Part shown: piece by piece, positions 11,777 through 60,391 of the stretch | Numbering within the stretch: the stretch's first letter is position 1 | How the letters are laid out: each line of letters opens with the position of its first letter | Source: Coptis chinensis | Taxonomy: Eukaryota > Streptophyta > Magnoliopsida > Ranunculales > Ranunculaceae | Direction: 5' to 3' | NCBI GenBank assembly: GCA_015680905.1 | Contig: CM027377.1 | Coordinates: forward strand, 34,248,501 to 34,312,500 | DNA length: 64,000 nucleotides | Program-made: the position numbers and the translations under genes | The notes under the pieces: model-generated | Told to the model about the DNA's origin: nothing | The model's database searches: none | What the model saw: only the letters and a program-made list of their open reading frames with translations

Positions 11777-12270
11777 ATTTGGTATTAGAGCTTAGGTTAG
11801 CTTAGAATGAGAAAGTCTAGGTGATCCTCGGATTGTGGTAATGGGTAGTATGAGTGTTTTTGTGGTGTTAAGTTTTCTTGTTGTTTTCAAGTTTGTTTGT
11901 TCCCATTTTAGATTTTTGGTCTTCCGCATTTTCGTATAAAGTGGTGTTTCTCATGACGTGGTTTTAATTTACGTATGTCCACATGTAAGGTTATACATTA
12001 TTGTATATGTGTATTCCTTTTAAAGTGTGTATACTTGGATATACACTTATATCTCATTTCTGATATTTGTTTATTATATGACCTTTGGGTGCAAGCTATA
12101 AATAACGTGTTTAATTAATCTTACTGGCCTGTTTTAGATTATCATATAAATTTTAGTCGCTGAGATATGATCAGTTAACTTAGAAGAATTATTGTTTGGC
12201 ATATGTTTGTTTGGTTAATCTACTCTCTTTCCTAAAATCTCAGGACGAGATTCCTTTAAGGTGTGTATAT

Positions 12271-15200: not shown

Positions 15201-15654
15201 TTCCAAGCTGAGAATGGTTAAGTTATTGGTACATATAAAGTGTTGTTTGAATAATTAAAGTATGAAACTATTTTATATTTTTAGTCTTACTCATACCAGC
15301 AAATTCGATTTGCTGACCCATGTTTGTTTTGTTTTGCAACGTGGGTGTGTTCTTGGGAACATAGATGGTGGAGTGCAGTGGATAAGGACACCTGATTTGG
15401 AGTTGCTCTTGGAGTCTTCTGGTTTAAGATTTTCTGAAGGGTACGGTTTTGTTTTGAGACAAATGTAATAGAGTTGGTTAGTTTCTTTGTAGTTTAATAA
15501 TATGATTTATGGATTGTTCATTTTAGTCATCTTTTGATTTTTGTTTTGTATATATCGTGTTTGATAACAGGGTTATGGGTTTTGTTTCACCCCGGGTTTC
15601 CAGATAATTGAATATAATTGTCTTAAATATTGTCTGGAAATTTGGGGTGTGACA
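12271..15654 (+). repeat. Right LTR of the gypsy element
   Basis: Starts just after a polypurine-like stretch with the family-typical TAACACCTCG and ends GTGTGACA. Its first 1.1 kb has no partner in the left copy and carries a degenerate tandem repeat. It abuts the PPR remnant directly. Confidence 0.75.
12850..13390 (+). repeat. Three degenerate tandem units (150-185 bp) in the right LTR
   Basis: Three diverged copies share the order: ACTGCxCxGTC, TTTCTxCTTAGATGGAGGTC, a poorly conserved stretch, AGATCCAACGGTTGGATTTC, TGTCGAGG, and a CTACACC end. They start at about 12856, 13022 and 13203. Non-coding. Confidence 0.7.
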
Positions 15655-16299
15655 GCCTTCCCCCCTTCCATGCTAGATTGGACTACACAATATGCACGCA
15701 AGGGATTCATACCCGATATTATTTTTTGTTTTATTGGCAAGCCTGTTTTAAATGAGATCAGTAACTCTTCGGTGCTGGCAGGTTCACCCAAAGATTTTAC
15801 TAATTTTGCTAGTTGGCACCTGCATTCACACCCGACATCACCACGTACACCACCCTTTTCCGCCAGTTCTCCAAGGTCGGGAATGTCTTGGGTGCACAAG
15901 AGGTTTCCAAAGATTATTTCCAAGGATTTCAATACAACTGTTTTACACTTTTACTCTATGCGAAAGAATGTGATCGAGGCTGATAGCGATGTTCGCGGTG
16001 TCCTTAGTTCTTACTGGGGCCATGTGTAAAACTGGAAAGCTAATTGAGGGAAGGAAACTTTTTGACTCTCTATCTGCATTTGAATTAGAATGCAATGGCA
16101 ATGGCTGGATGTTTACCTCAATGCTGCTAGGTGCCCTCTATAAAGTGGGGATGTTTAGTGAATCTCAAAATATGTTCGATCAGTGAGATGAAAAAGAAAT
16201 AACTTTATGTTATTGACAACGCCGGATTCAATATCAGGGTCAGAGCATGTGCAGATTATCACTCCTAGGTCAGGGAGGTTTTTCAGCAGATGCAGAAAC

Positions 16300-17086
16300 T
16301 GTTGTAAGCAGATAAAAGAAAACAATAGAAGACAAGGACAGAATAACAGGTAATAACCAAGGCGCGGATTAGGCTGTCCTTAAGGAAAGATTTAAGCCCC
16401 TTCCAATGGTGCGAGAAATGCAACGATGGCGTCTTCCTCACGGGATTCAATGGTTAACAAAGAGACTGACTTTGCACTAGAAACGGACTACCCTCTAGAA
16501 CGAAATATAACTCTCTCGGCGGCACCGGACGGGGAAGAAGAGAAGAAGAATAAAGCAATTAATGGTTTCTGTTTCTCTGATTCGTGTGGGGTGGGATGAA
16601 GGGTTGTGTATCCACGAAGTTACGTTTACGTTTTATTTGGTATACACGAGTTCTCTCTCTGCCTATCTCTCTGTTCTGTGTTGATCTTTCTCTATGAACA
16701 CAGCAGTGTTTTATATAGAGGTATGATCGGTTACCAGATGGGAGAAGGACACCTCTCAAAGTCGGTTTCACAAAACCAAGTCGAAGTAGAACTCTAGCCA
16801 CCCTAGCCGAAACTTGCAGCAAAGTTTAGGCAATTGGTAAGCCACTACCCACTAGACAATAATCCCAAGCCCGAACCCGACACGATGCAACGCGGTGCGG
16901 GGCGGGCAGGCGCGCGCACGTGTGGCTTTGGGTAAGTCCTCCCTCCTAACATAAAAGCCTTTGTACCCTAAGGGCACGCCCTTATGATGGAGGAATTTCT
17001 CATATACCTCACTTGCTAGTGGTGGTTCACCAATGTAGGACTAAACAACACACAAGTATTTTGAAATACTCTTGGAGATTCCAACA
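16300..17086 (-). repeat. Copia 3' LTR (element on - strand)
   Basis: On the - strand it begins TGTTGGAATCTCCAAGAGTA and matches the copy at 19035-19797. It includes the conserved pair AAGGGCGTGCCCTTAGGGTA and GGCTTTTATGTTAGGAGGGA. Confidence 0.9.
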
Positions 17087-17726
17087 ATCCCCCACTATTT
17101 CAAAATACTAATAGTCCCCCACTATTTTGGAATAGGATATTACAAAAGAAATGGGTTAACGAAATGCCAGAGAGAATCGAAAAAACAATGCATAAGATAC
17201 TGGTGCTTTTCGGGCTTGAACCAGTCATAAGGTAACATGTTTTATAATACGTGAAAGTGGTGGATTAAAAAATCTTTGAACCAACATTCCCTTGTAGTAA
17301 AATAGAGCACATGCACCCACATTGTTCTTTCATTATATGCCCGTTACAAGCGGTGTTTGCTTTTTTGGCCCTTCTTGTTTGTGTTCCATGAATGCTCTAG
17401 AGTACTTGCTTGAATACTCATAAGAACCGACCTAGTTCTACATTCATGTAGGTGGATATCCATCAAGTGTACAGAGCAGTTAGAATACACTATCTCATAA
17501 CAAAATAATGGACTATGGATTCCATTAAGAGTAAGATAACTCATCCTTTCTCATTGCAATTCAAGTTATACAAAGTATACAATAATGCTATCTAGTCATA
17601 GGGTGGGACATCTCAAAGAAAGATAATAGCATACCAGAGCGACGAGGTGACTTGTTTTTCCCTTTGAACCTACTTCATGGGATCTCCAATCACATAGGTG
17701 GGGTTGCCGTCAGTGTCGCCCTCTAT

Positions 17727-19030
17727 CTAAGGCAAAAGTCCCATCCCCCTCGACGTTTCAACCACTTGTCTCCTGTTAAGCGGTTTTGTCAAAGGATCGG
17801 CCAAATTTAACTCTGACCTTACATAATCAATAGCCACAACTCCAGATTCCAGCAGCTGCTTTATAGACTGTAGTCTCAGACGAATATGCCTGCTTTTCCC
17901 ATTATACAATTTGCTCTTTGCCTTTGCTATCGCGGCCTGACAGTCACAATGCATAGGTACAGCTGGAGGCGGTTTTGTACCAATAGAAAGATCTTCCAAG
18001 AGGTTTCTAAGCCACTCAGCCTCAGCACTTGCTTTATCCAAAGCAATAAGCTCGGACTCCATGGTTGAACGAGCTATCAAGGTCTGCTTAGAAGATTTCC
18101 AAGCGACTGCACCTCCACCTAGGGTGAAAATATAACCACTAGTGGACTTGATATCATGAGAATCAGATATCCAGTTTGCATCACAATAACCCTCTATCAC
18201 AGGTGGAGTTTATCTAAACCGTATGCCGTAATTCATTGTTCCTCTCAAATACTTGGCTAGTCTCTCTAACGCACTCCAATGTTCCTGGCTAGGACAATGA
18301 TCAGATCCGCTTAACACCGCTAACTGCATAAGCAATGTCGGTCTAGTGCAATTCATCAAGTACATGAGACTACTAATAATTTGGGCATATCTAGACTGAA
18401 GGACACCATGTTGAGCATTTTTCTGAAGTTCACTATTTGCCTCATAAGGTGTTGACACAGGCTTACTATCATAAAAGTTAAACTTCTTCAAAAACTTCTC
18501 AACATAATGCTCTTGTGAAAGCGTATAGCCATCACTGTTTCTGATGATTTTGATTTCAAGAATCACATCAGCTTCTCCCAAATCCTTCATTTCAAATTGG
18601 GAGGATAAAAACATCTTGGTGTTTCTCACAACATCAAGGTTAGGACTCATGATTAATATGTCATCCACATATAGACAGATAATCACATATGTATTCACAT
18701 CAAAAGATTTAAAGTAAATACATTTATCAGGATAATTTATGTGATATCCATTAGACATCATGACACTGTCAAACTTTTCATGCCATTGTTTTGGCGCTTG
18801 TTTCAACCCATATAAAGACTTAACTAACTTGCATACCTTATGCTCATTTCCTGGTACTATCGTACCCTCAGGCTGCATCATATATATTTCTTCATCAAGA
18901 TCACCATTCAAAAATGCAGTTTTTACATCCATTTGATGAATAAATAAATTATGAATAGCAGCTATAGCCATTAGAACTCTTATAGAAGAAATCCTAGTTA
19001 CAGGAGCATAAGTATCAAAATAGTCAACCT
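17727..19030 (-). pseudogene. Copia pol remnant: reverse transcriptase and RNase H
   Basis: The reverse transcriptase part shows QMDVKTAFLNGDLDEEIYM, SLYGLKQAPKQWHEKF and CLYVDDILIMSPNL (the YVDD catalytic box). The RNase H part shows [20 protein letters not shown] and [20 protein letters not shown]. The motifs place it in Ty1/copia. Fossil copy, not a host gene. Confidence 0.92.
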
Positions 19031-19034
19031 CTCA

Positions 19035-19797
19035 GGATAAAAGAAAACAATAGAAGACAAGGACAGAATAACAGTTATAACCAAGGCGCGGATTAGGCTG
19101 TCCTTAAGGAAAGATTTCGCCCCTTCCAATGGTGCAGAAAGGCAACAGTGACGTCTTCCTCACAGGATTCAATGGTTAACAGCAGCCTGACTTTGCACTA
19201 GAATAGACTACCCTCTAGAACAACAATATAACTCTCTCTGGCGGCTGACAGGAAGAAGAGAAGAAGAATAAAGCAATTAATGGTTTCTGTTTCTTTGATT
19301 CGTGTGGGGTGGGATGAAGGGCTGTGTATCCACGAGTTCTGTTTCTGTTTCGCTGGTATACACGAGTTCTCTCTCTGCCTATCTCTTTGTTCTATGTTGA
19401 TCTTTCTCTATGAACACAGCAGTGTTTATATAGAGGTATCGGTTACCAGATGGGAAAAGGACACCTCTCAAAGTCGGTTTCACAAAACCAAGTCGAAGTA
19501 GAACTCTAGCCACCCTAGCCGAAACTTGTAGCAAAGTTTAGGCAATTGGTAAGCCACTACCCACTAGACAATAAGCCCAAGCCCAAGCCCAAACCCGACA
19601 CGACGTGACGCGGGGCGGGCGGGCGCACACGCGTAGCTTTGGGTGAGTCCTCCCTCCTAACATAAAAGCCTTTGTACCCTAAGGGCACGCCCTTATGATG
19701 GAGGAATTTCTCATATACCTCACTTGCTAGTGGTGGTTCACCAATGTGGGACTAAACAACACACAAGTATTTTGAAATACTCTTGGAGATTCCAACA
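19035..19797 (-). repeat. Copia 5' LTR (element on - strand)
   Basis: Second LTR copy, same start (TGTTGGAATCTCC on the - strand at 19797), about 760 bp. Small ORFs in both LTRs are not genes. Confidence 0.9.
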
Positions 19798-19903
19798 GAA
19801 ACTACGTCATTGATAGGTGATTTGCTCGATCAAAATGATGAGTTTATGGTATATCTTGATGATATCTACGACTTTGATGTGGTTCTTTCGTCCATGCAAC
19901 GTT

Positions 19904-20049
19904 AGGAAATCATTGGTGGCGCCAATTCATTGGTGTCTAGGTTGGCTTTAGGTGTGACTGTCAATCTTTTATTGTTCTTGGAGCTCCTTGATCTTGATTG
20001 TGACTAGAGTGCGGTAAATGCTTGTACTCTCATCGGTTTCCAAGTTCCG
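19904..20049. other. Short intergenic stretch
   Basis: Sequence between the PPR stop and the LINE-like element; nothing recognisable. It joins seamlessly to 29919 once the LINE-like element is taken out. Confidence 0.5.
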
Positions 20050-20280
20050 TTTTGCTAACACTTTTTTTTTTTTTTTGAAAAAAAGTAAGCTGGGGTTAAG
20101 GTATACCCCCACCTGATATTATTGCAAAAGGTTAAACCTTACAAGCTAAGCCTCCCTAAGAGTTAGATCATTGAAAGGAGGAGCACAAAGACACTATATC
20201 AACAGGCTTCAAACCTAACATACATAAGATAACATATTAGTCATCCTACAATCGAACTTAAGAAAGTAGAGATGATAATC

Positions 20281-21583
20281 CTACTTTCTAGTCATGATTT
20301 CTTTAACAATCTTAGAATGATCCTTTCTAAGATGAGTCTGTGCTTTCTCATAGTTGCAAAAGAAACCTTCGCAAGCACAACACACATAAGTAAGTCCCAA
20401 AATATCATCCCAAAACTCTTTGGTGTAGTCTTCAAGATTTCTCATCTTCTTGTTTTTCATTAGCGACTTTACCTTCTTCATCATAGCAAGCGTAGGCTCT
20501 ATTTCTCCTGAAGAACGCTCTTGGATCCTTTTGCTTCTTTTTGGCTTCACAGTAGTCCATTGATTTTGATCCTTAGAAGGCGCTGAGCTCTTATGCAAGC
20601 CAATTGTTGGGGCTACTGTAGCAGCATCCGTAAAAAATTCGGTCTCATTCTCTGAGAGATCATCATCTTCATCCTCATATCCAGCAATTAGCCCTTCATA
20701 CATGTTTCGTTCTCTACTACTTGGCAGTTGGTTAATCGGAATAACTCTAGGCTGATGACTTTATGTTGGTGTAACCGTATTACTCTTATCTCTCTGGTTA
20801 TTTGAAGCTCCTCTTTGCGATTGAGGAGTATCCATAGTTTCACCAATCCTATTTACTATAGGAGTTGTTATCTCAGCAGGCACATAAAGTGCTAATTGAA
20901 GTCCAATGGAAGGATCAGCTCCAGTATCATGTCCACTAATATTGAGCTCTTCAACCACTTGTTCCATTCCCCGAGCACCACTACTACGGCCAGATTCTTC
21001 GTTCTAACGAAGGGGAAGGACCCACACAAACTATTGGTAATCGACTCTGCAAGAGGAGAGTTCGGCACCACAGTAACATTCTCTATAATGGTCTGGACCA
21101 CCACTTGAGTAGGAAGCTGATCAATCCTTGTTGTTGTTTGCTGAGCACCAGCATTACTGCTCTACCATTTACATTTCTTCTCGGAATCCAAGTATTAACT
21201 ACTGATTTTATTGCATTTGTTTGTCTTGTGTCCAAACTTCATACAGGTGGAGCAGGAGGAAGGTTTCCATGGATACTCGACACCAATGCTCATTTCCCTC
21301 TCACCAACTTCAATACTAACAGATTTTGGGTAGTGAAAGAGTAATGGAATCTCAACACATACCCTCGAAAATGATAGTCTCTACTTTTTAGCAGTGGCTT
21401 CATCCATACACATGGGTTTCGCTACCAAACTTGCAAGAAAAGACAGTCCATTTTTCGTCCACAACTCTTTCGGAACATTTGACATCTTAATCCATACTGG
21501 AACAGATTTTGTTTCTCATCCTTTCAGCCTCAACATTCCAAGGTCTGATAATGAAAATTCTCCCAGCAATAAAGATTGGCCCC
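20281..21583 (-). pseudogene. DUF4283 protein, C-terminal part with CCHC knuckle
   Basis: Starts directly with PIFIAGRIFIIRPWNVEAER, the second half of DUF4283, then VWIKMSNVPKELWTKNGLSF and VCVEIPLLFHYPKSVSIEVG. A zinc knuckle CSTCMKFGHKTNKC (C-x2-C-x4-H-x4-C) lies at about 21210-21252. After a low-complexity middle the last ORF (20703-20281) is acidic then basic and ends with YVCCACEGFFCNYEKAQTHL RKDH, a C2H2-like pair of cysteines and histidines. In-frame stops between about 21350 and 21500 and near 20760 break it. Confidence 0.8.
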
Positions 21584-21899
21584 CACTACACCAGAATTTA
21601 AGAATTAGGACACACTCTTGGGACTATATACCCCGTCTCTAATTAGGAACAATAATTACCGTCTTAAATTGTTTTAACCCCATCATACTGCTTTTTTAGG
21701 TTGACTTAGGATTACTTTGGTTGACTGAACGACATTAGTTTTCGTCCCAAATCAGAGACTAGACATTGCGTGCTTTTCCAGTTCGGTGACCGTCGTAGAT
21801 GATTTTCAGAGAGAAAGTGATTCACTTGTCTTTTTTGCGCTCAACATTTCGTGACTATTTGACTACCCCGCCCATTATTTCTTTCTTTCACTAACCCTA

Positions 21900-22226
21900 G
21901 TATAAGAAGAAAGTGAGGATTTGGTGGGAGGGCTCTGACAGTAAATCTTTGGTGGTAGTGGTTTGAGTGTTTGATAGTAAGAGCTTCAAATCTCTCTCAA
22001 AATCGACAAGAGCTTCATCTCTCTCTCTCAAGTTTTGGAAACCCACACACACTCTCTCTCGTCAATTTTCGTTTTTGTTAGAACCCCAATTTCTAGTCAA
22101 GGGTTGTGCAAATTTCTTAAATTTTTAGGTTTCATATTTTCGCTTCAAATTTTGCTGTAGATCAGAGAAATTTCGGAGAAGAAGATGGACAACAAAAATG
22201 TAATCGTCTGCGACAATGGCACCGGG
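21900..22226 (+). pseudogene. ARP2: ARP2 leader and first coding exon (captured fragment)
   Basis: ATG at 22185 opens MDNKNVIVCDNGTG, the start of actin-related protein 2, a subunit of the ARP2/3 actin-nucleating complex. The exon ends at 22226 with GGCACCGGG|GTAGTAA, a plausible donor. Upstream are CT-rich leader sequences (about 22010-22070) like a native 5'UTR, so a promoter region may have been carried along. The next ARP2 segment (YVKCGFAG) was not found downstream. Fragment captured by the CACTA element. Confidence 0.8.
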
Positions 22227-22814
22227 GTAGTAATAATTATTTTTTTGATATGGTTAGTGTTTATTCCTTTGATGAATTAGATAGTTTCATTTTTGTAAGG
22301 GCAGTTTGATCAAAATGTTTGCTTTTGGTTTTGATTAGTGGTGAAATTGCTTGTTTTGGAGGTTTTATGTGTTTGATTGGTCAAGTTTTAGGTGAAAATG
22401 TGTTTTTTTATGTATTTTTTGGGATGTCCCTTGTGATGGTGTTTCTGGTTAGATATTGATATTCTGTTAGCATGTTAAAACATGAAACCTATTTGCAGTT
22501 CAATAGTTTTTGTTCTTCTGGAGTTATTCAGTAAATGTATTTGGTTATTTGAATGCTAGTTTAATCAAAATGTGATGAAGTGACCATGGACTGTGAAGTT
22601 GTTGAATTTAGGATACATAAATAAATGAATTTATTCCAAAATTAACATAATGTCATTTGGTAGTACTACTAAATTAACATGATCTTTTTAATATTGGGAT
22701 TGTTCAGAATTGGGATGATATGGGCCATGTTTGGGATCATGCATGTTTCAATGACCTAAAAGTAAATCTTTTCATTGGCCCTGACACTCATTTATTGTGA
22801 AATATTATAGGATT

Positions 22815-22818
22815 GGCT

Positions 22819-22880
<62 letters not shown>
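22815..22880. repeat. (TA)n(CA)n microsatellite
   Basis: A long TA dinucleotide run passing into CACACA. It lies in the CACTA element downstream of the ARP2 exon. Confidence 0.95.
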
Positions 22881-23239
22881 AAAATAGATCCAACAGAATG
22901 TAAGATTTTACTAACTAACCCACCTCTTAATCCTTCAAAGAATCGTGAAAAAATGGTTTAACGGTTTATCTTTAGACCAAACATCTCAGATTAGTGCAGT
23001 AGCTTGCCCAGAGTCAAGATACCTGCCCTGTTGTGGTTTTATATTTGTCAATCTTGTTCTGTTGGGTGTGTGTGGTGTGTGTGTGTTTTTATTTTCAATA
23101 TGCAAACTTAAGGTAATGTAATTGTGTGAGCAGTGATTAGCTACTAATGCATGTCTAGCATATTGCGTACGAATAAGTTTCATCTAGTGGTGTCTTGACT
23201 GCTGCAGCTAATAACTTGTTGCATATTACATGTTTAGCG

Positions 23240-23530
23240 TATTCCTAACTGATGCAGCTAATAACTTGTTGCGCCTCAAGCTAGCCAAGGAACTTGGGGT
23301 CAAAATTGGAAGTCCATGGGTTACTTTGTTCAAGGCTGAAAGCTTACCGGCATTTGTTTCTCTGTTTCTCTTTTAGCTAATCCATATATCCTATATAAGA
23401 TTTTTCCACCTGAAACTGAAGAAACTCTAAATGCCCCTGCTGTAGCAACTTTGAAACTAGAGCAGATGGGTCTTGTGACAAAGAATGAATGCGTGATGGT
23501 GGGTACAATGCTTTTTGCAGTTTCATTGTG
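23240..23530 (+). pseudogene. Chloroplast dicarboxylate translocator (DiT) fragment
   Basis: Translates as AANNLLRLKLAKELGVKIGS, PWVTLFKAESLPAFVSLFLF, then in a shifted frame ANPYILYKIFPPETEETLNA and LEQMGLVTKNECVMVGTMLF AVSLWIFG. This order is characteristic of plastid 2-oxoglutarate/malate and glutamate/malate translocators (SLC13-like, DiT1/DiT2). A frameshift near 23370 and lack of the rest of the gene show it is a captured, dead piece. A copy of the GCAGCTAATAACTTGTTGC motif also occurs just upstream (23205-23223). Confidence 0.75.
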
Positions 23531-24170
23531 GATCTTTGGGTGAGTTTTCAGCTCCCTACTTTACGATTCTATTGCTCATCGTGACAACATCTTTATAAAC
23601 ATGCATGGTTGACAATCGGATTAGTGTGTATTTGACTTATTAAGCAATACAAGCGAGAAGAAAAAATAAGGAAGGAAGTGTCAGGCTGCTGACATGTATA
23701 TTTGGACCCTGTTATGTGCATGAACTTAGTGTAGACTCCTAGAAAATCGAGTGTCTTTATTTGTTATTTAATTTTTGTGCTCCTGAAACTTAATGGTAAT
23801 AAGCTTTGGCTTGGAAGTAGCCTGAGTTCGAACACATCATGGTTATTTAAATACCCTTGGAAGCGTTGGCTTGGAATTTAAAAGATGAAGCTGACTTTCG
23901 GTTCACGGAAGGATCTCATTTTTGTATGAACCACAGAACTGGTAGTTATTATTCATGTGACTAAAATGATGATATGATCTTATTCATAGCTTTCTAAAGA
24001 TCCTGCTAATCCCCCCCTTCCGAACTGATATAAGAATAAGCGAGTCAGACACACAACTTTTGAAAAATATTATATTATGAGGTGTTATATCTTTTTTCAC
24101 TTTCGTGTTTTTATTTTCCCTCCCCTACTCAAACTGTGTTGGATTTTTTAATGGGAATCTCTTGTAAACA

Positions 24171-24660
24171 GGACACTAAGTTGCAAAAGCTATCGATGAT
24201 AAATCCAGGAGGAAGATTGTGTTGCCAGAGATGTGGAGGAAGAGTATTAGGAGGCAGCTACCTTGCCTGTTCGGATATTCGCAAAATGTACTGAAGTTGC
24301 TATGTTTGCAACCAATCACATATGGGTAAGTATAAATTTTTATTTATGATTCTAAGCACAAATTCTGGGATTTGTGTCTCACATTATCTCAAATGGACTG
24401 ATCAGTCATGGGATTTGAAACTTTCTATTCGATTAAAAAAACTCTTCAGCCATTAGATATCTATGATTCACTTTCAATGGAGTGATGTTCTATCATTTCT
24501 GTTTGTTGTGGGACGAGATGAGTGTAGACCAGCGGTCAGTTCTTGTTAGAGAAGGTTGAGAGACCAGGAGATGAAGCTAGAAAAACTGCTAAAGAGTATG
24601 GAGTTATTGGAGTCTGGAGATACTATAAGAGACTCTATGAACAGTTAATTGGAGGTATGA
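24171..24660 (+). pseudogene. Two exon-like pieces of an unidentified gene in the CACTA element
   Basis: Exon-like piece A (about 24171-24325) follows an acceptor (TTGTAAACAG) and ends at CATATGG|GTAAGTA. Piece B (24525-24654) follows TGTAG and ends at TTGGAG|GTATGAAG. In a common phase they read EAATLPVRIFAKCTEVAMFA TNHIW and TSGQFLLEKVERPGDEARKT AKEYGVIGVWRYYKRLYEQL IG. Piece A has an in-frame stop in this phase. I do not recognise the family. The basic, aromatic-rich stretch and clean splice sites argue for a real source gene. Confidence 0.5.
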
Positions 24661-25870
24661 AGTTCATTTTTCTTTTTCTTTTTCTTTTTCTCCGTAAGTT
24701 TTTTTTATTTTTTTTTTATACTCTACTATTTTTGCTTCTAAAAGTTAGCTAGTATAGGGAATCAAATCATATTTATTAACATTAATTACAGAAATCGATT
24801 TAATCATCCATTGTATGTTTGTCTGCTATACCTTTGTTTAGTTTAAGTTTTTTAAAATTAATTTTGATTCTTATAATTAGTTTCTGTAGTCAAGCATGTC
24901 AATGTATACAATTGAAGTCGAGGGACAGTATATGGCGTGTCCATGTAACATATGTTACGTTTTGTGTTGTGTAGTTAAGAATTTAGTTTGTAACACACTT
25001 GGGCATTATTTGGATTTCTCAATTGCAGATTTGTATATGTGTTCGACTGTTCGGCAAGAAATAAGAAAATTTATGTTTTCAATGCACAACAAGAATTAAT
25101 ATGCCTATTGTTTGGATGTGGGACTTAAATTTTTGTTTATAAACTTTGTGAAGGAATGAGTATATTTATATTTTAAGAAAAATGAATTGGTAATTGTAGG
25201 CATGGGAGTGTTTATATTTTAGATTATGTAGTTGCTTATAAAATTTGTACCTAAGTTGGGTATTTACTGGGATTAATCTGCGACTAATGTTTATGAAACC
25301 AATGTTTTGTTTCATGTAAAGGCAAAACCATGGAGAACAAAGTATGAGCTACTGTCAGTTATAATCCAAATGTTTTTAGGTTAGTGGTTGTTTTTTAGGT
25401 TAAGTATTTAGGAGTGAAATATAGTCTATTAGAGGAAAATTAGGCAATACTTTGCAACTTCGAAGGGGCAGCTTAGTTTTGATGTTCTTTGCCTTTGTCA
25501 TTGGCTTATTTGAGTGGGCTTTATAGACAGGGCACGAGTAGATCCCTGTTTGAATAGAATAAATAGAAGATTCCAAACATTATATCAAATCATTGCTCTC
25601 TCTGCAAAGTCTTGCATTGTATTAAGCATGCCTAAAATGAAAAGAAAGTTACCCAACCAATTATCTCATAGCAAATGTTGATATAGATTCGAAATTAATT
25701 TGGAACATTCATATAGAATACATAATTGTTTTCGGTGGTTGCTAACTTGTCCGGTTACAAATTTACAATGTTCAAGTGCCTTAATATGCTCATCGTGCTA
25801 CTATTCTGTATTTAAGTGTTGGCTCATTTCATTTTTCTGGAACTTACACCTAGTTAACTTTTTTGCTCAG

Positions 25871-26126
25871 GGTGATGTGGAATCAATTGCTTCCAAGAAC
25901 CCTAAGGAACTTACTGGACTTCTTGAGCGCATCTCTCGGTTCAGATGAACTTAAGAGAGAATATGATGCTCTAGAAGAGCAAAAAGCCAAAGTTTGAAGA
26001 AAAAAGAAGTCAAGAAAAAAAAAAGAATATTGTTTATCGAAGAAGAAAACAATAGTCATGGAGAGGAAGCAGAAAAAGGAGCGAAAAGAAGAGGTGAAAA
26101 GCATCTTAAACTTGCAAGATCAATTG
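25871..26126 (+). pseudogene. SMC1: SMC1 exon fragment 1 (captured)
   Basis: After the acceptor TTTTTTGCTCAG comes GDVESIASKNPKELTGLLER IS, a signature of the N-terminal head to coiled-coil junction of the cohesin subunit SMC1, followed by DELKREYDALEEQKAK and AEKHLKL. A frameshift near 25940 and later changes break it. The exon ends near 26126 at CAATTG|GTATTT. Confidence 0.85.
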
Positions 26127-26720
26127 GTATTTATTCTGACTTTTGCTTTGTAACCTTAGCTTGTTGTCATCCTCTTTTAAATTATTATTTATACAACTAT
26201 ATATAAGCTTATAACTATGCGTGGCTTACACCATTAACTGCATTGGAAACTGGACTCATGTTCTTCGTTGGCAATTTTAACTGTGAGGTAGTGTGCATTA
26301 TTTTTCTCCTTGCTTGCATTGAAGAATTATGTCTCAGCAATCTATCTGCTATGCATTTTATTGTGAAATGGTGTTCTGATGTGGTATGGCATAGTTGCTC
26401 CTTCACCCCTCAATGAAGTTGGACGGCGACTGATACTTAATTGCGTAGTCTACTCCTCATCTTTGATAGTTATCATGTCTTATAGTAAGCCTTTTATGCT
26501 GTCATACACATCTTGCATTGTTCATTTCCTTCCAAGTTTTTTTTCCGTATCTTTCAACTACTAAATGACGCTGTGTTCATAAGCTTTGCTGTTAGGGCAG
26601 TTGCATATGTTTGCTTTATCATAATAAGCTAAAAGTATGTTACTTTCCAAATTTGCTTTGTTGGGCATACTTGGGTTTTCTTTTTTTATTCTTGTGAGCT
26701 GATTGATTTATTTTTTGCAG

Positions 26721-26954
26721 AAATCTTTGAAGAAAGAACATTTCTTATGGCAATTGTTGAACATTGAAAAGGATATGGAGAAGGTGAACGAGGACCTTGA
26801 AGCTGAAACGAGGAGTCGCGAAGATGTTTTGAAGGAGCAAAAAGACTATGAACTTGAAGAAAGTTCTAAAAGAAGGGAACAAGCTGGATACCTAAAAGAG
26901 ATCACGTTGCGCAAAAAGAGAATTGCAAATAAGAAAAGTATAATTGATAAGAAG
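26721..26954 (+). pseudogene. SMC1: SMC1 exon fragment 2 (captured, open)
   Basis: An exon bounded by TTTTTTGCAG|AAATC and GATAAGAAG|GTGAGTC, fully open: KSLKKEHFLWQLLNIEKDME KVNEDLEAETRSREDV... to KRIANKKSIIDKK. This is the first coiled-coil segment of SMC1 and continues directly from fragment 1 in protein order. Good splice sites and an open frame suggest recent capture or little time for decay. Confidence 0.88.
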
Positions 26955-28258
26955 GTGAGTCAACTTCTTATTGTTATGTACTTACTTTTCCATTGATTTC
27001 GAAACTACTTTATATTGTACTTTTTCTTTTCTTTTCTTTTACTAAATTTTGCTAGATGGGGACTAGAATATTGATATTGCCACCTAGATGAACGCTGACA
27101 CAAAAAATCATTGGGATTTTAACAAAGAGGATAACCTATTTTGTTGCATATTGGATTAGTTTGGCATTTTTCTTATGTTGATCCTTGAAAGCAAAATTCC
27201 ATTTGTTATATAAACATAGTAGTACTCTTCCAGGGGTCAATAGGCATCTACAAGAAAACTTAGACATCCCCAACTAGGTTAGCAACCCCTAGCCCACTTA
27301 TGACTTATATATTGGAATCCTATGTCATACTCCCTTACAACCAACTCAAAGTCTTGAAATCAAAAGGTTTTAAATATTGATCCATTATTGGTTTGGGCAT
27401 TTATACGATTTGGTTTACCACTTTTTGCTTTACTTTCAATTGTTGGGTGTTCAATTAAAGGGGTTTATTTATTATACTTCTTCCATATTCTCAAAGTTTG
27501 TTCAATTACCTTCAAGAACTATGTTAAATTATGTCTCTACCCTATAATTATAAAAAAGGAACAGTGAATTTGAATGTCTTAGAGAGCACATCAATTGTAG
27601 CGGCTTAACTTTTGGCTAAGTCTCGCTTATTCGTGTAGTGGCTTATCCCATTTCATCTGCATACCTGCACACCAAAGGACAAACCATGGTGTCTCTAGCA
27701 AGTGCCCATGCGCTTTGTAAGAGTGAACGATGATGATAGCCGAGACAAGTTGTTGCATCTTAATTTGTGTAATTCATAGATACTGTCCCGATGCATGGAT
27801 TAATGCTTCAAAACATAGGAATTGATGGAGTTTCATTAGAACCGAGCGAAAAGAACTTGGCCTAGAGTTCTTGGACCACAGATTGTTGAGACATTTTACA
27901 TGTCGTGGTCTTTTCACTCTTTTTGCAATCGGTGGATTTTTAACGCGTTTTCTTCAGACCCTAAGCTGTCAAACATTTGTTTTCAAAGGTCCTCCGGGCG
28001 CCTAAGGCGCTGATTTGCTTATGAACGTAGTTGTAGACTTGTAGTTTGTCAAAGGCAGCACTTGGGAAGCCTAGCATCTTAACCACCCACGTGTAGCACT
28101 GTTCTTCTTATTGAACATTCATCAATGTTTTCTTTTAAAATTTCTTCATCTCATTTTCAGCAGCAACTGGTTGTTGCAATTGCACCTGCTTTCTTGTTTG
28201 TATTCCTATTATATAAGCTTTTAGTTCTATCCCTCGTGACATCTTCCTTTTCACAAAG

Positions 28259-28410
28259 AACCCGAGCTTTTGAAGTTAAAGGAGGAAGTATCTCCCATCA
28301 ATTCAAAACCAAAAGCAAAAAGAAGGAGCTAGATAGGAAGAGAGAAGAACGAGGGAAGCATGACGAAGAAATTAAAATGCTACTGAGAATGATTGTTGTG
28401 ATGTGACGAA
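28259..28410 (+). pseudogene. SMC1: SMC1 exon fragment 3 (captured)
   Basis: After TTTTCACAAAG the sequence reads NPELLKLKEEVSPINSK and, in another frame, KKKELDRKREERGKHDEEIK M, the next coiled-coil block of SMC1. The frame change shows it is dead. With fragments 1 and 2 it preserves the order of consecutive SMC1 exons over 2.5 kb, so genomic DNA with introns, not cDNA, was captured. Confidence 0.75.
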
Positions 28411-28979
28411 CGATTAAACAATCTAAAAGGCAACGATGGGGCTAGAAAAATTAAACTTCTTCGACAACCAACCGAGGGAATACCACAGGGATGTAAGTGT
28501 CGAGCTAACATAATGGAAACTTGTTGGATACATTTTTCCTTTGCTTTGATTGTTATGCAAGGACTTCAATATCATCTTTTGGTTGTTTCATATTAGGGTA
28601 AATCATTCTGCTATTCATCAAATATACTCTTGATAGTGTCATTTTTAGAACTGATAATTTAGTAATCTTTTGTTTTACTGAAATGTCAAACAAGTGCACA
28701 CTTGTCAATTTGGACGATAGAAAGATTTAAGTGGAAATATTTGTTGCCTTCACCCATTAAGAATGTTTGACTTATGCTATTACATTGTAAATTTTGGAAA
28801 ATACCAATGTATAATATACCAATTTTTGAAATGTGTTCTTTTGGTATGTTGTTTGTGCCTTGTGTAATTGATTTTATGATATGAGAAACCTCAAATTAGG
28901 TAGTATTTAGCAGGGGTGTATGGGGCAAAATAGATTCTACCAAATAATATTTATTATTTAAAAAAAAATTAAACCAATA

Positions 28980-29265
28980 CGACGGCAAATAGTATCATTA
29001 CTTGACTTCCTGAAGCAATATACGACGGGTGGTTATGTTCCACATTTGAAAACTTGCAATTCCATTACAAAGGAAATTTGCGACGGTTCTGAGTGTCCTA
29101 TATTTAACGACGGCTTCTACTGTCGCACGCCCGTCGCATTTCTAATTCAACTTGCCACGTTTTTTTCCGTCGTTAATATTAACGACAGGGCGATTTGCTA
29201 CGAACTCGGGGACACTATTTCCTGTCGTAAATCTCGATTTAGGACGGATTTTACCGTCGTTTTTG
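28980..29265. repeat. CACTA right subterminal repeats
   Basis: A cluster of ACGACGG, GCGACGG, CCGTCGT and CCGTCGC motifs on both strands within 300 bp of the right terminus. Short repeats of this kind are transposase-binding sites in En/Spm-type elements. The cluster is absent from the adjacent LINE-like sequence. Confidence 0.75.
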
Positions 29266-29283
29266 GCCATTTCTGATGTAGTG

Positions 29284-29630
29284 CCCCCTTCTAGAGCCAT
29301 CTTCCTATCCTCATCAACAGTAAAGGTAAAATAAAACAAGTCCCTATCTGTAGTTAGCTCCATCGAACCCTTCAATTTCCAAGCTTTCTCAAGTGAAGCT
29401 TTCACATAAGGAAAAGCTAGTCTTTTTTCTAGAAAATACCCTACCAAGGTATCTTTCCACTCCTCAACACCCTCATCAATGAGGTCTTGAGGTACTACAG
29501 CTACTCCATCGGTAAGTTCAGGTGTATAAATTCTCAAAGGTGTAGTATTTTTAGAAATACAAGAATTACTAAAAAGAGAGCTCCAAGACATAGGTTGTCT
29601 TGAAATCGGTTGAGAGGTAGAATCCCCCAT
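29284..29630 (-). pseudogene. DUF4283 protein, N-terminal part (LINE-type ORF1)
   Basis: Begins at the ATG at 29630 with MGDSTSQPISRQPMSWSSLF, then YTPELTDGVAVVPQDLIDEG, WKDTLVGYFLEKRLAFPYVK, AWKLKGSMELTTDRDLFYFT and FTVDEDRKMALEGG, where the CACTA element cuts it. These are the first strands of DUF4283, the RNA-binding-like domain of plant LINE ORF1 and related zinc-knuckle proteins. This part is open. The continuation lies at 21583 and below. Confidence 0.85.
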
Positions 29631-30769
29631 GATCAAACAGAATATTGGAAGAGAAAATTCGGATCTTCTTCAACCTGCGCGGTCTTGAGAGATACCATAA
29701 AAGGAAAAAAGAAGAGCGAAGAAGAAGATACGAGTTTCTTACCTACTAACTTTTGCTAGAAAAGGAAACTTTTAGGGCACTGGATCACAGATTGCAAGAT
29801 ATCCTATCTAACAGCTAGTCGCCTTAGAATCGCCTCAAAGAGTGACCCCATTTCTATATTCTTAAAATTGGGAATTTTCTTACCCCTAAATTGAAAAACT
29901 ATCATTTTGCTAACACTTAATTAAAAGTAATTAGAGTTACAAAACTTAATTTTTAAAAGTTAGTAGTATAAAAGGGTCGGATTCTAGGGAGATGAAAACT
30001 TCACATACACAAATTCAAATATGCTTGTTGAGAGTTGATGAGACACTTGAACAGCGAGATCGCCACATACCATTCCCCTAAGGTCGCTAACCCCAATGCG
30101 ACAAGCCAATATGATCTCCCAAATTCTTTGTTTCTGCCAAGTAATTCCTCAGTCCTACGTCCTAACCACTTACATGCACAGGATCTCACTAAACTTGTTG
30201 AAGAATGAATGTGGTTTTCATCTAATAGCCAATGTGATCTCACTAAATCAGATAAGAATAAATGGTTTTCATCTAATAGGGTTCAAATTTAAGTTGTGGA
30301 TTTCTTTTTTGTTTTATTATTCATATCTGTGTATTATTACAATTTATAACAAAAACAATATAAAATTAAGGAAAATCAGTATAAATTAATTAAGGAGATT
30401 TTGTTTTTGTTTTCATCAATATAAACTGTCTACTATAAATTCCATTTTTGTTATAAGTGTTGCTTTATCTTTATTTTCTAATGGAGCATTTTGCATTTTT
30501 GATTGAATCCTTAACTTAGAAGTTGGGTAGTATTTGGGAGTTGGTCTGAATAAGATAAATTCAATAGTAAAAGGGAAATTATGGAGAAGATAACTTTGGT
30601 TAAGGAATCTTCTGTTTATATCTGTTAAGGAAAAAGAGAAGGGTACGTAAAATAAAAGGTGATCTAAGTCATATATTATGTTTTTTACCAGGGTACAGGG
30701 GTAGCTCGCTAGCATTTCTCTTTTATCTTAGGTTGTGTTTGGTTCACAACGCAGTATGTCACCCCGCAA

Positions 30770-31230
30770 GACCACTATCCATTTTTGCTGCCTCATTTAT
30801 TTTTTCCAGACGCATTAATTTCTTTGAATAGTGTTTTTCAGTTTAGATGTGTAAAACTTTATTAAAGGCAATAAAGATGAATTTTAGTGGTTTGGTATAA
30901 ACTTGTTGTAAATCTTTTGATTACTACTATTGAAAGGTTTTTTTCTTCTTCTACAAATATCCAAACTCTAATGAAAACCTCTGTTCTATAATATTTTTAT
31001 TCCTTATTTTATCTAATTATTTTTATTCCTTATTTTCAAAACAGTAAGCACAAAATCACTAGAAAATTAGTCTGAATCTCATTATCAACAAGAGCCATTT
31101 TATTTTATTTTTATTTTTATTATTTTTATTTTTCTTTCTTCAGATGAGAAAAAAATAGTAGGAATTGTCAAGAATTTGTTAAGTGTCTCAAAACAAGCTT
31201 TATCTCATATGAAATATCTCAAAGGCGGCC
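30770..31230 (+). repeat. Diverged duplication, copy 1
   Basis: Shares ordered blocks with 32640-33650: TAATTTCTTTGAATA, GTGTTTTTCAGTTTAG-TGTGTAAAA, GAATTTTAGTGGTTTGGTA, ATCCAAACTCTAATGAAAA, CAGTAAGCACAAAATCAC and GGAATTGTCAAGAATTTGT. The copies show clear point and length divergence, so the duplication is old. Function unknown. Confidence 0.75.
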
Positions 31231-31560
31231 TGCATTATTTATGTTTATTTTTATTCTCATATATCTTCAGCTGTGTGCGGTGTGCGGTGTGCCCCCTTAT
31301 TCAACGAGGTATCTCTTTCACCAGTTCCATTTCCTAGAGCAGTTTAGATTGTGTTTTTAGGCACTGACTCTTCCTACTCTTGTTCTAAAAGAGCATATAT
31401 AGTAATTGGTTACTTTTAGTTATTCAACTGTATTAGGCATTGTAGGACAATTGTTTTCTACAATAATTAACATACTAAATTTATTACTTCCTTAATCGTT
31501 TCAGTTCACTAGAGAGACGATAAATATCACTACCGCTTTCACCCTCTGTGATATATGTAC

Positions 31561-31850
31561 GAGAAAGTCAATATTAACAATATCTCCTTCCCGATCAATT
31601 GGGGAGATAAGAAGATTATCAAAAGCATTGCTGACCAAGGGAGTAAATGTGAGTGTGTATCACTTCAAGTTTTGAACTTTCTACCGTGTTAATTAGTATA
31701 TACTTTTTATTTTCTTTCAGCAATTTGCGATGTTCTAACAACTACCAAAGTAGTTGAGGCATTACAGGTGATAAGGGGCATTTATCTTGGAGGGAGCTAG
31801 AGGATCGCATTGGTGATGTGGTAATTGTCTATAGGTGTTTTGAGTATATG
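31561..31850 (+). pseudogene. Exon-like remnant, family unknown
   Basis: Reads YEKVNINNISFPINWGDKKI IKSIADQGSK up to a GTGAGTG donor-like site. After TTTCTTTCAG it continues with ICDVLTTTKVVEALQ and, with one shift, GDKGHLSWRELEDRIGDVVI V. Amino-acid composition and splice-like borders look gene-derived, but I do not recognise the family and the frame is broken. Confidence 0.35.
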
Positions 31851-32639
31851 TGAAAAAATGGACTCAGCTTAGAAAGGGACTATATATCCTAACAATAATG
31901 GTTCAAAGGTATGGTTTCTTTTTATTTTCTTATATTTTAGGAAGGCATGATTCTGTGAGACCTAAATTTTCATGTACGATACACTTGGCAAACAAACATG
32001 GTTGTTAAAAGGTTGATCACAGTAAATATATTTTAGAAGTCTAAGATCAAAATGTTTTGAAAAGCTTTTATAGACTATTGGGAGATGGTGTACGGTGAGC
32101 GAATTACGCAAAAGTTAAGTTGTAGCATATCAACCTATTTCCTTTGCCATCACGAGAACAAAATATTTTTTTGGCATTCGTCAGACGGTGAGTAGTACTA
32201 ATCTAATGTATCTCATTCTTAAATGTGCCCTTATGCTATTAGTGGTCTGGATCTTTTGAATTTCTCTATGAAAAGAATAATATAAAGTTGAGATGACATA
32301 TTTCTTACTAATGAGTTGTTCATTTTCTTTCTTGTCAGAAAGTCTAACACAGATTTTCATTATACATTGTTTCTGTTCACAAAATATGTTTCCAACACAA
32401 TGATGCTAGTAAGCATCTTCCCTTATCAAGAAAACTTTTATCCCGAAAAATTTATGTGTGGAGAAAGTGGGAGGAGGAGGATACGTCCAAGATTCCCCAC
32501 GATTTTAATTTTGCGGTTCCTATTTTCTGCAGACCTTTTCATCAGCTCATATTAATCTATTTTATTACATTTTCACACAAAGAAGACACACCATAGTCAT
32601 TCTCTCTCAAGTTTCTCACCAAACTATGTACCCACGGCA

Positions 32640-33650
32640 AGGGCACTCTCCATTTTCTCTGCTTATTTTTTTTTCAAATGCATAATTTCTTTGAATAATG
32701 TCTTTTCAGTTTAGGTGTGTAAAATTTTGAAGGCAACAAAAAGGAATTTTAGTGGTTTGGTAAAACTTGGAAACCCATAAACTTCTTGCAAATCTTTTGA
32801 TTACTACTATTAAAGTATTTTTTTTTCCTTCTTCTACAAAAATCCAAACTCTAATAAAAATATTTGTTCTACCCACTATTTGTTGGGGGCACTACCAGAA
32901 GCGTTATTAAATTTAGATCTTGAATTTTTGTAAAGAGTATTTGAGAGGGATAGAATTGAAGATGCACACCCATATTGGGTAGTGCATAGCTCCTAATCGA
33001 ATTAGTGAATAAAGTTGAACTATATAGACAAACTCTTTGTATTATGGAGTGAATAAGAGATGATTGTTACATCAAGTAACTCATATGGCTATATTTATAG
33101 TCCATATGGAACATTCTATAATTTAGGAACACATGCACTTTAAGTCCCAGAGACTCCTAAAACTTCTATACTCGTCCAATAATGATCATACATGAAATAA
33201 ACATCTTGAAACACTTTGACTTAGCACATTCTAGGGGTTCTTAAAACCTTGAGCTTTCGAGAATTTAACTGACTAAATTACAAATTACATTTCCAACACT
33301 CTCCCTAATTTGTAATTTCATCATCCCAAAATGAAATTTCAAGATATATCTTCATTACTGTTTTATTTATTTATTTTTCTTCCTTATTTTCAAAACAATA
33401 AGCACAAGGTAACTTAAAAATCGCCAGAAAAAGTAGTGTGAATTCTCAATATCAACAAGAGTCTTGGGGTTCCACACTATTATTTAACCGTGTGTTTTTT
33501 GTTGTTGTCGATGTTTTCTAATATCAGTTAGTTTTTCATGTGTTTTGTTTTTTTTAGATAAGAAAAATGTTAGGGATTGTCAAGAATTTGTGAAGTGTCT
33601 CAAAACAAGTTTTTATCTCATATGAAGTATTCTCAAAGGTAGTCTGACAC
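32640..33650 (+). repeat. Diverged duplication, copy 2 (interrupted by an LTR)
   Basis: Second copy of the block at 30770-31230, longer because a copia LTR remnant lies inside it (32880-33298 plus a little adjacent sequence). The LTR is absent from copy 1, so it arrived after the duplication. Confidence 0.75.
32880..33298 (-). mobile_element. Copia LTR remnant
   Basis: On the - strand it starts TGTTGGAAATGTAATTTG at 33298, preceded by the purine-rich AAATTAGGGAGAG that usually abuts a copia 3' LTR, and ends TGCCCCCAACA at about 32880. Only the LTR and some 55 bp of adjacent sequence remain. Broken, old; no target duplication found. Confidence 0.6.
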
Positions 33651-34714
33651 GAAACAAGAGGTGGTCGGGAAATCCAAGTGGTAACCAGGGTTTATTTATG
33701 TCCAGGCACTATTCTTTAAAGGCATTTTCTTCGCTGCGCCAAAAATCAAATGCACTCAATGTGCACCAATCCACACCCCTCAAGCTAAGGGTTGAGGATG
33801 TATTGCACAGAAGGCAAAATGTTTTGAGTGAAAATTTTCTCAAAAACCTAAATCTCAATGAAAAAGATGTTGGGTTTGAGTATAGAACTCATACTTGGTA
33901 TTTATGGCCCAAACAACTCAAGCTTGGTAATTATAGAGTTCTTTGTAACAAGTTGCTATTACTCATGTGAGACTACAAAAAAAATGTTAATTCTAAGAAT
34001 AAATGTTATTTTTCATCTTTTTCGCAACATCATCATTAACTTAATCAATTTCATCTTTTTTTCTCAATACTTATTATTCCACTTATTATAGATCTACCTA
34101 GTTTACATTATATTATTTTGGTTTGGATCAATTGAACTAATGAAAAATATTAAGTTTTACCTAAATTCATATGGTTTAGATTGGAGTAGTTATGAGATCT
34201 AACTAAGTTAGTGTTCAAATGAGTATGTATAAGATTTAATTGGGTATTTGAATATAAAAAAAGTGTAAACTAGGTGGTTTGATTTGATTCATGGGATCAA
34301 CGTTGGGTAACGGTTGGTTATGTACCACGGACACAATGCACTTTTATTTTTTGGTAACATATAATAATGTACTTGAGCTCGAATAATTTAAGCACGTACA
34401 ACCGTAGAAGTCATATCAATATATCATCACCATTAATTGAAGTATATATATATATCATATCACGAGAGTTCATTTAGATTCTCATCACTTCACTTGTATT
34501 ATCTTACCAACAATTATATATTTCATCATGTCGACAGACCGTGAAGTGGACGCAAGGAAAAAACCAGAAAGTACCAAAAGAGAAACAGAAGCAGGGGCAA
34601 AGTTTCGGTAATTTTCTAGCAATTCGACAATGACACGTTAAAATATCAAAATATTGAACGGTAGCCACGGTTGGGTGTCTGGTGTTACTTATAAATAGTT
34701 AAAATCAGCAAAAT

Positions 34715-34820
34715 CCACGTGACCCCATTACCGAAGTCGACACTTTTTATTAATTAATTAATAATAATAAAAAAAAAAAAAGACCTCCACCCAAAACAAA
34801 TAACATTAAGCCACGTGTCA
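34715..34820 (+). promoter_or_regulatory. G-box pair upstream of GWD1
   Basis: CCACGTGACC at 34715-34724 and CCACGTGTCA at 34811-34820 contain the CACGTG core bound by bZIP, bHLH and PIF factors. A near-match to the evening element, AAAATATCA, lies at about 34641 (one base off AAAATATCT). GWD transcripts are known to cycle daily in Arabidopsis; a link with these sites is inference. Confidence 0.5.
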
Positions 34821-34851
34821 TAGCGCCAAGATCACGTAGTTTGTTTCTTAT

Positions 34852-34976
34852 GTATATATATATATATATTCCCATAACCAGAAAATTTGAGTGACTCATT
34901 TTGTTTTTTTGGAGTGAACTTCCAGCTCCTTCCTCTTTACCTCAGACCCTTTTTTTAAGAAAAGATTGAATTTGAG
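34852..34976 (+). promoter_or_regulatory. GWD1 core promoter and 5'UTR exon
   Basis: A TATATATA run (34852-34870) is followed by a pyrimidine-rich stretch (CTCCTTCCTCTTTACCTCAG) and a donor GAG|GTACTT with exon end at 34976. The matching acceptor TTTGAACAG at 35141 lies 15 bases before the start codon. This implies a non-coding first exon and a 165-bp leader intron. The transcription start is not fixed by sequence. Confidence 0.55.
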
Positions 34977-35156
34977 GTACTTTTTAGTGATTCGTTTCTT
35001 GTGTTAGAAGTAACTTTAAGATGATCAGTTATTTAAAATGATTTGGCAATTTTAGATTTAATTTGATGTCTAATAAATCTTGGATTTTTATTTGATACTT
35101 GAATTTTAGATGATTTTTACTGACACTTGTTATTTGAACAGTTATTGCTAAGGAAC

Positions 35157-60280: not shown

Positions 60281-60391
60281 ATTGGTATCGAGGCGTAGGT
60301 ATACGACCTAGGATTTTGAGTTTAGTGCTCAAAATTTGTGTAGACAAGGTGTTCGATTAAATTTCGAGGTGAAACCGCTTTTTGGGTTATT

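Follow-up and report, generated by a model that had tools for sequence, protein, structure and literature searches.

The question raised by this locus is whether the 7.7-kb stretch at 21584-29283 is a single transposon and, if so, what its interior is made of. All coordinates are positions in the window, the 64-kb stretch of DNA that was analyzed. Gene capture is a well-documented habit of CACTA transposons, and this stretch is very probably a non-autonomous CACTA element (En/Spm superfamily) of the Pack-CACTA type, in which genomic fragments from three or more unrelated host genes have taken the place of the interior and which has moved as a unit. A sequence-only reading had proposed gene-fragment capture by a CACTA element. 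This proposal is supported by directly observed features: the terminal inverted repeats (TIRs) that mark its ends, a target-site duplication (TSD), subterminal repeats, a target site whose reading frame is restored on reconstruction, and pieces, with intron signals, of genes that are unrelated to one another; no transposase was detected in the element. The features are listed in Table 1.

Table 1. Features of the element and its target site (window coordinates)
Feature	Position	Strand	Basis or remark
Left CCC target-site duplication	21581..21583	.	pair enumeration and sequence
Left 13-bp terminal inverted repeat CACTACACCAGAA	21584..21596	+	begins CACTA
Left subterminal repeats, three CCGTC motifs (21633, 21659, 21790)	21633..21794	.	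motif count
Probable ARP2 5' leader	21900..22184	+	position only
ARP2 exon 1 (MDNKNVIVCDNGTG), then GT	22185..22226	+	8.6-bit segment, weak but collinear with the strong match
Second ARP2 coding block (GIVQNWDDMGHVWDHACFNDLKVN)	22696..22767	+	search match; Actin E 0.056 at the same place
Third ARP2 coding block (IDPTECKILLTNPPLNPSKNREKMV)	22884..22958	+	search match
30-bp direct repeat (90%), copies 23193-23222 and 23243-23272, left edge of DiT piece	23193..23272	+	
DiT2-type chloroplast dicarboxylate transporter exon piece, one frame change, then GT	23239..23539	+	
Probable exon A of fourth gene, one frame change, one stop, then GT	24172..24325	+	
Probable exon B of fourth gene, then GT	24528..24654	+	
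SMC1 exon 1 of 3, AG before, GT after, frame changes	25871..26126	+	
SMC1 exon 2 of 3, single open frame	26721..26954	+	
Probable SMC1 exon 3 of 3, several frame changes, then GTAAGT	28259..28492	+	no added score alone
Right subterminal repeats, eight CCGTC motifs, both orientations	28977..29258	.	motif count
Right terminal inverted repeat TTCTGATGTAGTG	29271..29283	+	12/13 pairs with left TIR
Right CCC target-site duplication	29284..29286	.	pair enumeration and sequence
Upstream half of interrupted DUF4283-like reading frame; continues at 21488-21583 once the element is removed	29287..29669	-	

Element ends and target site

According to the available part of the source, CACTA (En/Spm) elements carry TIRs of 10-28 bp with CACTA/TAGTG ends (PMC7139988). 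Pairs of CACTA...TAGTG lying 0.5-20 kb apart were enumerated across the whole window and filtered for a shared flanking 3-mer and a TIR identity of at least 11/13. Among 1554 such pairs, 27 have a common flanking 3-mer, and a single one of these 27 reaches the identity threshold. This pair is 21584-29283, with 13-bp TIRs identical at 12 of 13 positions and CCC on both outer sides, in line with the 3-bp TSD of CACTA elements; the boundaries and CCC duplications as first read are exact. Owing to a C run, the two flanks agree over up to 4 bp. The runner-up pair, 17093-29283, has a TIR identity of only 10/13. Dinucleotide shuffling, repeated 200 times, gave 0.115 qualifying pairs on average and a pair of 12/13 or better in 4 of the shuffles, so the case for an element rests on the combination of marks. 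An exact search of IMG/VR with the left-end 28-mer returned 0 matches, as expected for plant DNA, and the 13-mer terminus was not found in a literature search.

When the element is removed, the joined flanks match DUF4283 with an E-value of 2.8e-6 (27.5 bits, barely above the cut-off of 27.2), and the match spans the insertion site; a shorter joined peptide reaches only E 0.066, and the right-flank ORF by itself gave no match. Excision with 3 bp removed keeps a 159-residue open frame, although removal of 0 or 6 bp would also keep the frame. Since joining the flanks restores a DUF4283-like frame, 21584-29283 is an insertion with mapped ends.

CACTA elements are expected to have direct and inverted subterminal repeats of about 10-20 bp. 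Repeats that share a short CCGTC core are present at both ends here, and on the right they occur in both orientations. The outer 300 and 350 bp hold 11 CCGTC motifs on either strand, against a mean of 0.23 and a maximum of 3 in 500 shuffles. Only 12 such motifs occur in the entire element, which leaves 11 concentrated at its two ends, asymmetrically (3 left, 8 right).

Captured gene fragments

Exons were spotted with plant ARP2 and SMC1 sequences as a guide, and the assignments rest on sequence searches. Splice boundaries were placed by eye, following the reading frames, before being listed; the rate of GT and AG at these boundaries is accordingly not an independent statistic.

The ARP2 fragment was identified by a sequence search against the PDB (E 1e-17). 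An ARP2 leader and exon 1 had been read here; exon 1 stands, the leader is probable from its position, and the proposed extent was too short, as the blocks at 22696-22767 and 22884-22958 are also ARP2. The by-eye sites between these two blocks keep the frame only with a 1-bp change. A TA/CA microsatellite lies between them. The piece of a DiT translocator is confirmed by the same type of search, with a match to DiT2.1 (E 6e-31).

For SMC1, a fragment whose query letters were checked against the DNA matches the PDB at E 1e-6, and exons 1 and 2 together at E 5.7e-7 with a query that departs from the DNA in the middle of exon 1. The first 45 letters of the SMC1 query still match SMC1, the best chain named SMC1A scoring E 0.0001, and the reversed query, used as a control, gave no SMC match. 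With their GT and AG sites, exons 1 and 2 can be joined in frame, and the alignment has no gap at this junction; at the second junction, the by-eye sites keep the frame only with a 1-bp change. Of the three consecutive SMC1 exons with introns that had been described, the first two are borne out by the PDB search, and the third, which contributes no score by itself, is probable.

A fourth host gene is probably among the captured fragments. The two exons previously assigned to a further gene are retained as probable, each being followed by GT; searches of PDB and Pfam gave no match for them (E 2.7 at best in PDB and E 0.23 in Pfam, both taken to be at chance level).

The intron signals in SMC1 suggest that genomic DNA was captured, and the frameshifts and stops in the captured exons suggest decay. 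In a search for complete donor genes beside the element (11700-21583 and 29284-39000; + strand, three stop-masked frames), no actin, transporter or SMC family was found at E up to 0.1 by a type of scan that also failed to pick up DiT and SMC1 within the element.

Class of the element and alternative origins

No transposase family was found at E up to 1 in a Pfam scan of six stop-masked frames of the element. Stop-masked HMM scans picked up DiT only after its pieces had been joined, and SMC1 at no stage received a Pfam score; a small remnant of a transposase, or a piece of a gene on the minus strand, could likewise have gone undetected. TNPD/TNP2 and TNPA, which are carried by autonomous CACTA members only, did not appear in the Pfam scan, as expected for a non-autonomous member, and host coding DNA from ARP2, DiT2 and SMC1, recognized by homology to PDB and Pfam entries, lies between CACTA ends, as in Pack-CACTA elements. 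Within the 64-kb window, blastn finds only the element itself, and scanning for Rfam families and tRNAs returned nothing. The element very probably jumped as one unit into a DUF4283-like ORF within repeat DNA, presumably mobilized by TNPD/TNPA-like proteins supplied in trans. Its fragments could have been gathered when neighboring insertions fused or through faulty gap repair, and the captured exons have been decaying.

The identified fragments (ARP2, DiT and SMC1) all read on the + strand, which had been taken as a sign of selection or of a shared capture mechanism. By chance alone, three fragments would all point the same way in 1/4 of cases and four in 1/8, so the shared orientation supports neither inference and is no sign of selection. 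The same consideration weakens the idea that a Helitron gathered the fragments and later came to lie inside a CACTA element, either enclosed by it or nested in it. Helitrons, which have a TC 5' end and insert between A and T, commonly line up gene pieces that all read the same way, as seen here, but the hairpin with CTRR and T that forms their 3' end was not found on either strand of the element with a strict pattern; this pattern also found none in 50 shuffles and is therefore insensitive, and it may overlook ends that are older or atypical. We regard a Helitron origin as very improbable.

It is somewhat less improbable, but still very unlikely, that the element is a functional chimeric gene, in which a captured ARP2 promoter and leader near the 5' terminus drive a sense, spliced chimeric transcript over all captured exons and selection lies behind their orientation. 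A start codon and probable leader near the 5' end and sense exons adjoining GT and AG sites are consistent with such a gene, as are the exons of Tgm-Express1, which the available part of its report describes as spliced into chimeric transcripts (PMC1947982). Against it stand the frame changes and stops in the DiT, fourth-gene and SMC1 exons and the insignificance of the shared orientation. Were it true, the element would be a mobile, self-promoted exon assembly, and the orientation a trace of selection for transcription. Least probable is that the CACTA-like ends are fortuitous and that the stretch is a collection of unconnected pseudogene insertions. Shuffled sequence did yield a 12/13 TIR with a TSD on those 4 occasions, but it would have to coincide with 11 of 12 CCGTC motifs at the two ends and with restoration of the target ORF there. 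The enumeration of pairs, the density of subterminal motifs and the restored target site together led to the rejection of chance ends.

Comparison with known CACTA elements

The preferred reading, a Pack-CACTA element, places this locus in a known group; that such capture is "known in a few plants" understates a literature covering at least soybean, morning glory, Arabidopsis, maize and Chenopodium. The combination of a CACTA element with SMC1 and ARP2 was not found in a literature search. As a single copy without donors, the element adds an instance and not a principle. It is a clear-cut case of a CACTA transposon that shuffles parts of essential genes unrelated to one another, introns included, and its ends are exact and its target site can be reconstructed. 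Gene-capturing CACTA elements are sources of chimeric transcripts and false gene models.

In its termini, the element resembles Tgmt*, a putative autonomous CACTA element of soybean with imperfect 13-bp TIRs and a 3-bp TSD (PMC2613891). Both have asymmetric subterminal repeats, 4 left and 24 right in Tgmt* (PMC2613891) and 3 and 8 here, whereas Tgmt* is 20.5 kb long and encodes a transposase (PMC2613891), of which none was found in 21584-29283. The Tpn1 family of Ipomoea nil is similarly composed mostly of non-autonomous CACTA elements with a captured host interior, 3-bp TSDs and subterminal repeats, and averages 7,081 bp in length, but it is defined by 28-bp TIRs, compared with 13 bp here (PMC5105172).

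The available part of the report on Tgm-Express1, a 5.7-kb CACTA element of Glycine max, describes five gene fragments including introns (PMC1947982), so 21584-29283 belongs to a known kind. As far as that part extends, both carry exon and intron sequence from a number of unrelated genes, three or four within 7.7 kb in the present case, and the genes captured by Tgm-Express1 are different ones (PMC1947982). There, Tgm-Express1 lies in intron 2 of a functional F3H gene and appears in chimeric transcripts (PMC1947982), whereas the element described here breaks a DUF4283-like ORF and is known from DNA alone. In overall design, the element also parallels the Pack-CACTA and Pack-TYPE elements of maize and Arabidopsis, which are likewise non-autonomous, have CACTA TIRs and carry coding DNA from several loci (PMC8903248).

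Element ends and insertion site

The element is very probably a non-autonomous, Pack-CACTA-type transposon that carries genomic fragments of ARP2, a DiT2-type transporter, SMC1, and probably a fourth gene, inserted in a DUF4283-like open reading frame. It spans 7700 bp. Its left end, CACTACACCAGAA, and right end, TTCTGATGTAGTG, form terminal inverted repeats (TIRs) matching at 12/13 positions, and CCC adjoins it on either outer side, bearing out the CACTA ends with CCC duplications proposed in the sequence-only reading. The TIR 13-mer alone, allowing up to three mismatches, occurs 24 times in the window (17.8 expected) and so is not rare; the whole end architecture was therefore tested. A flanking trinucleotide is common to both ends in 27 of the 1554 CACTA...TAGTG pairs spaced 0.5–20 kb across the whole window; of these 27, only the pair bounding the element has a TIR match of at least 11/13. 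Dinucleotide shuffles yield a mean of 0.115 pairs with a shared trinucleotide and a TIR match of at least 11/13; a pair at 12/13 or better is present in 4 of 200. The outer 300 + 350 bp also contain 11 CCGTC motifs, counting both orientations (3 on the left and 8 on the right), against an expectation of 0.23 for the element ends and a maximum of 3 in 500 shuffles; the interior holds one further motif in total.

Once the element and one CCC are deleted, the right flank (...VDEDRKMALEGG), read on the minus strand, runs into the left flank (PIFIAGRIFIIRPWN...) in a frame open over 159 residues. Residues 89–147 of the joined peptide match Pfam DUF4283 (E 2.8e-6; 27.5 bits, cut-off 27.2), spanning the insertion point near residue 129; a shorter joined peptide reaches only E 0.066, and the right-flank ORF by itself has no match. 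Deletion of 0 or 6 bp also keeps the frame, so the frame alone cannot set the duplication length. DUF4283 is frequent in plant retroelement-type ORFs, and the element is therefore probably located in repeat DNA. The sole host gene found in the scanned stretches beside it (+ strand, 11700-21583 and 29284-39000) is of GWD1 type, with matches to PF23166 (E 8.6e-13 and 8.8e-10) and PF23229 (E 9.7e-42, four stretches).

Features of the element and its surroundings (window positions)
Feature	Position	Strand	Remark
Plant mobile domain PF10536	7049-7516	-	E 6.9e-9; ORF 155 residues
Copia-type piece, RVT_2	18210-19031	-	E 1.3e-59
CACTA element	21584-29283
ARP2 first block	22185-22226	+	MDNKNVIVCDNGTG, then GT
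ARP2 second block	22696-22767	+
TA/CA microsatellite	22821-22880		about 60 bp
ARP2 third block	22884-22958	+
30-bp direct repeat	23193-23272		90%; spacing 50 bp
DiT fragment	23239-23539	+	GT directly after
Probable exon	24172-24325	+	GT after
Probable exon	24528-24654	+	GT after
SMC1 exon 1	25871-26126	+
SMC1 exon 2	26721-26954	+
Probable SMC1 exon 3	28259-28492	+
GWD1-type alpha-glucan water dikinase gene, N-terminal exons	about 36698-38952	+
Copia-type piece, Retrotran_gag_2	60344-61024	+	E 4.6e-31

Captured gene fragments

Joined, the three ARP2 blocks have actin-related protein 2 as best match in the PDB search (E 1e-17); among the best 60 of 142 matches, the first five are ARP2 and the following ones actins. 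They also match Pfam Actin (7.5e-11). The sequence-only reading thus had the gene right, but its leader and exon 1 omit the second and third blocks. Between the first two blocks, about 50 residues of ARP2 are missing. A microsatellite stretch, a possible intron, separates the second and third blocks; the obvious GT and AG around it break the frame.

The claimed DiT piece is confirmed by the chloroplast dicarboxylate transporter 2.1 structure (E 6e-31) and Pfam Na_sulph_symp (9.4e-13). With DiT1 reaching only 8e-12, sequence similarity assigns it to the DiT2 type. A direct repeat lies at its left edge, and at this capture border part of the transporter exon's start seems to be duplicated. Searches of Pfam and PDB yielded nothing for the two probable exons that follow.

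The SMC1 query, with letters confirmed against the DNA and X placed at frame changes, aligned to human SMC1A residues 138-377 (E 1e-6). SMC proteins make up 9 of the 10 sequences listed, and the first 45 letters suffice to retrieve SMC1; a control query, the reverse of a slightly different version, gave no SMC match in the PDB search, and the pieces did not score against Pfam SMC_N. Of the three consecutive exons claimed, the first two stand. Without the third they reach 5.7e-7, so exon 3 contributes no score and is probable by collinearity.

The inter-exon stretches of 594 and 1304 bp both open with GT and close with AG. The junction of exons 1 and 2 preserves the reading frame, with a gap-free alignment over it; at the second junction, the chosen splice sites are one base off frame. 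The intron signals and the in-frame first junction point to genomic DNA, not reverse-transcribed mRNA, as the captured source. DiT (one frame change), SMC1, and the exons lacking a database match are decaying pieces, since reading frames change inside exons and stops occur. No transposase family was found by Pfam in six frames of the element, and movement would therefore require proteins in trans.

Every fragment detected reads on the plus strand, which had been taken as a sign of selection or a shared capture mechanism. A single shared orientation has a chance of 1/4 for three independent fragments and 1/8 for four, so selection need not be invoked. The minus strand was covered by a Pfam scan of stop-masked frames, and because this type of scan missed the plus-strand DiT fragment, a minus-strand gene piece may lie inside the element. 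In Tgm-Express1, all five fragments are described as spliceable into transcripts of one gene (PMC1947982), which by our own reasoning implies one shared sense orientation there too.

Relation to known CACTA elements

No published report of the ARP2, DiT, and SMC1 combination came out of a literature search for CACTA with SMC1 and ARP2 (0 papers), but CACTA elements carrying gene fragments are a well-known kind. The 339 Tpn1 elements of morning glory average 7,081 bp, have 3-bp duplications with a single 5-bp exception, and hold captured host sequence in place of their interior; some are transcribed (PMC5105172). The lettuce study, with 1,714 candidate CACTA elements, states that non-autonomous middles typically hold host gene fragments (PMC8195511), and Chenopodium elements likewise contain them (PMC8978399). 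Maize Pack-CACTAs have the most distinct captured loci among Pack-TYPEs, and in the model for their capture neighbouring insertions fuse (PMC8903248; review PMC13317346); we would infer the capture mechanism here from such literature. Subterminal repeat asymmetry has also been described, for example in soybean Tgmt*, an element with imperfect 13-bp TIRs, a duplication of 3 bp, and 4 versus 24 subterminal repeats (PMC2613891).
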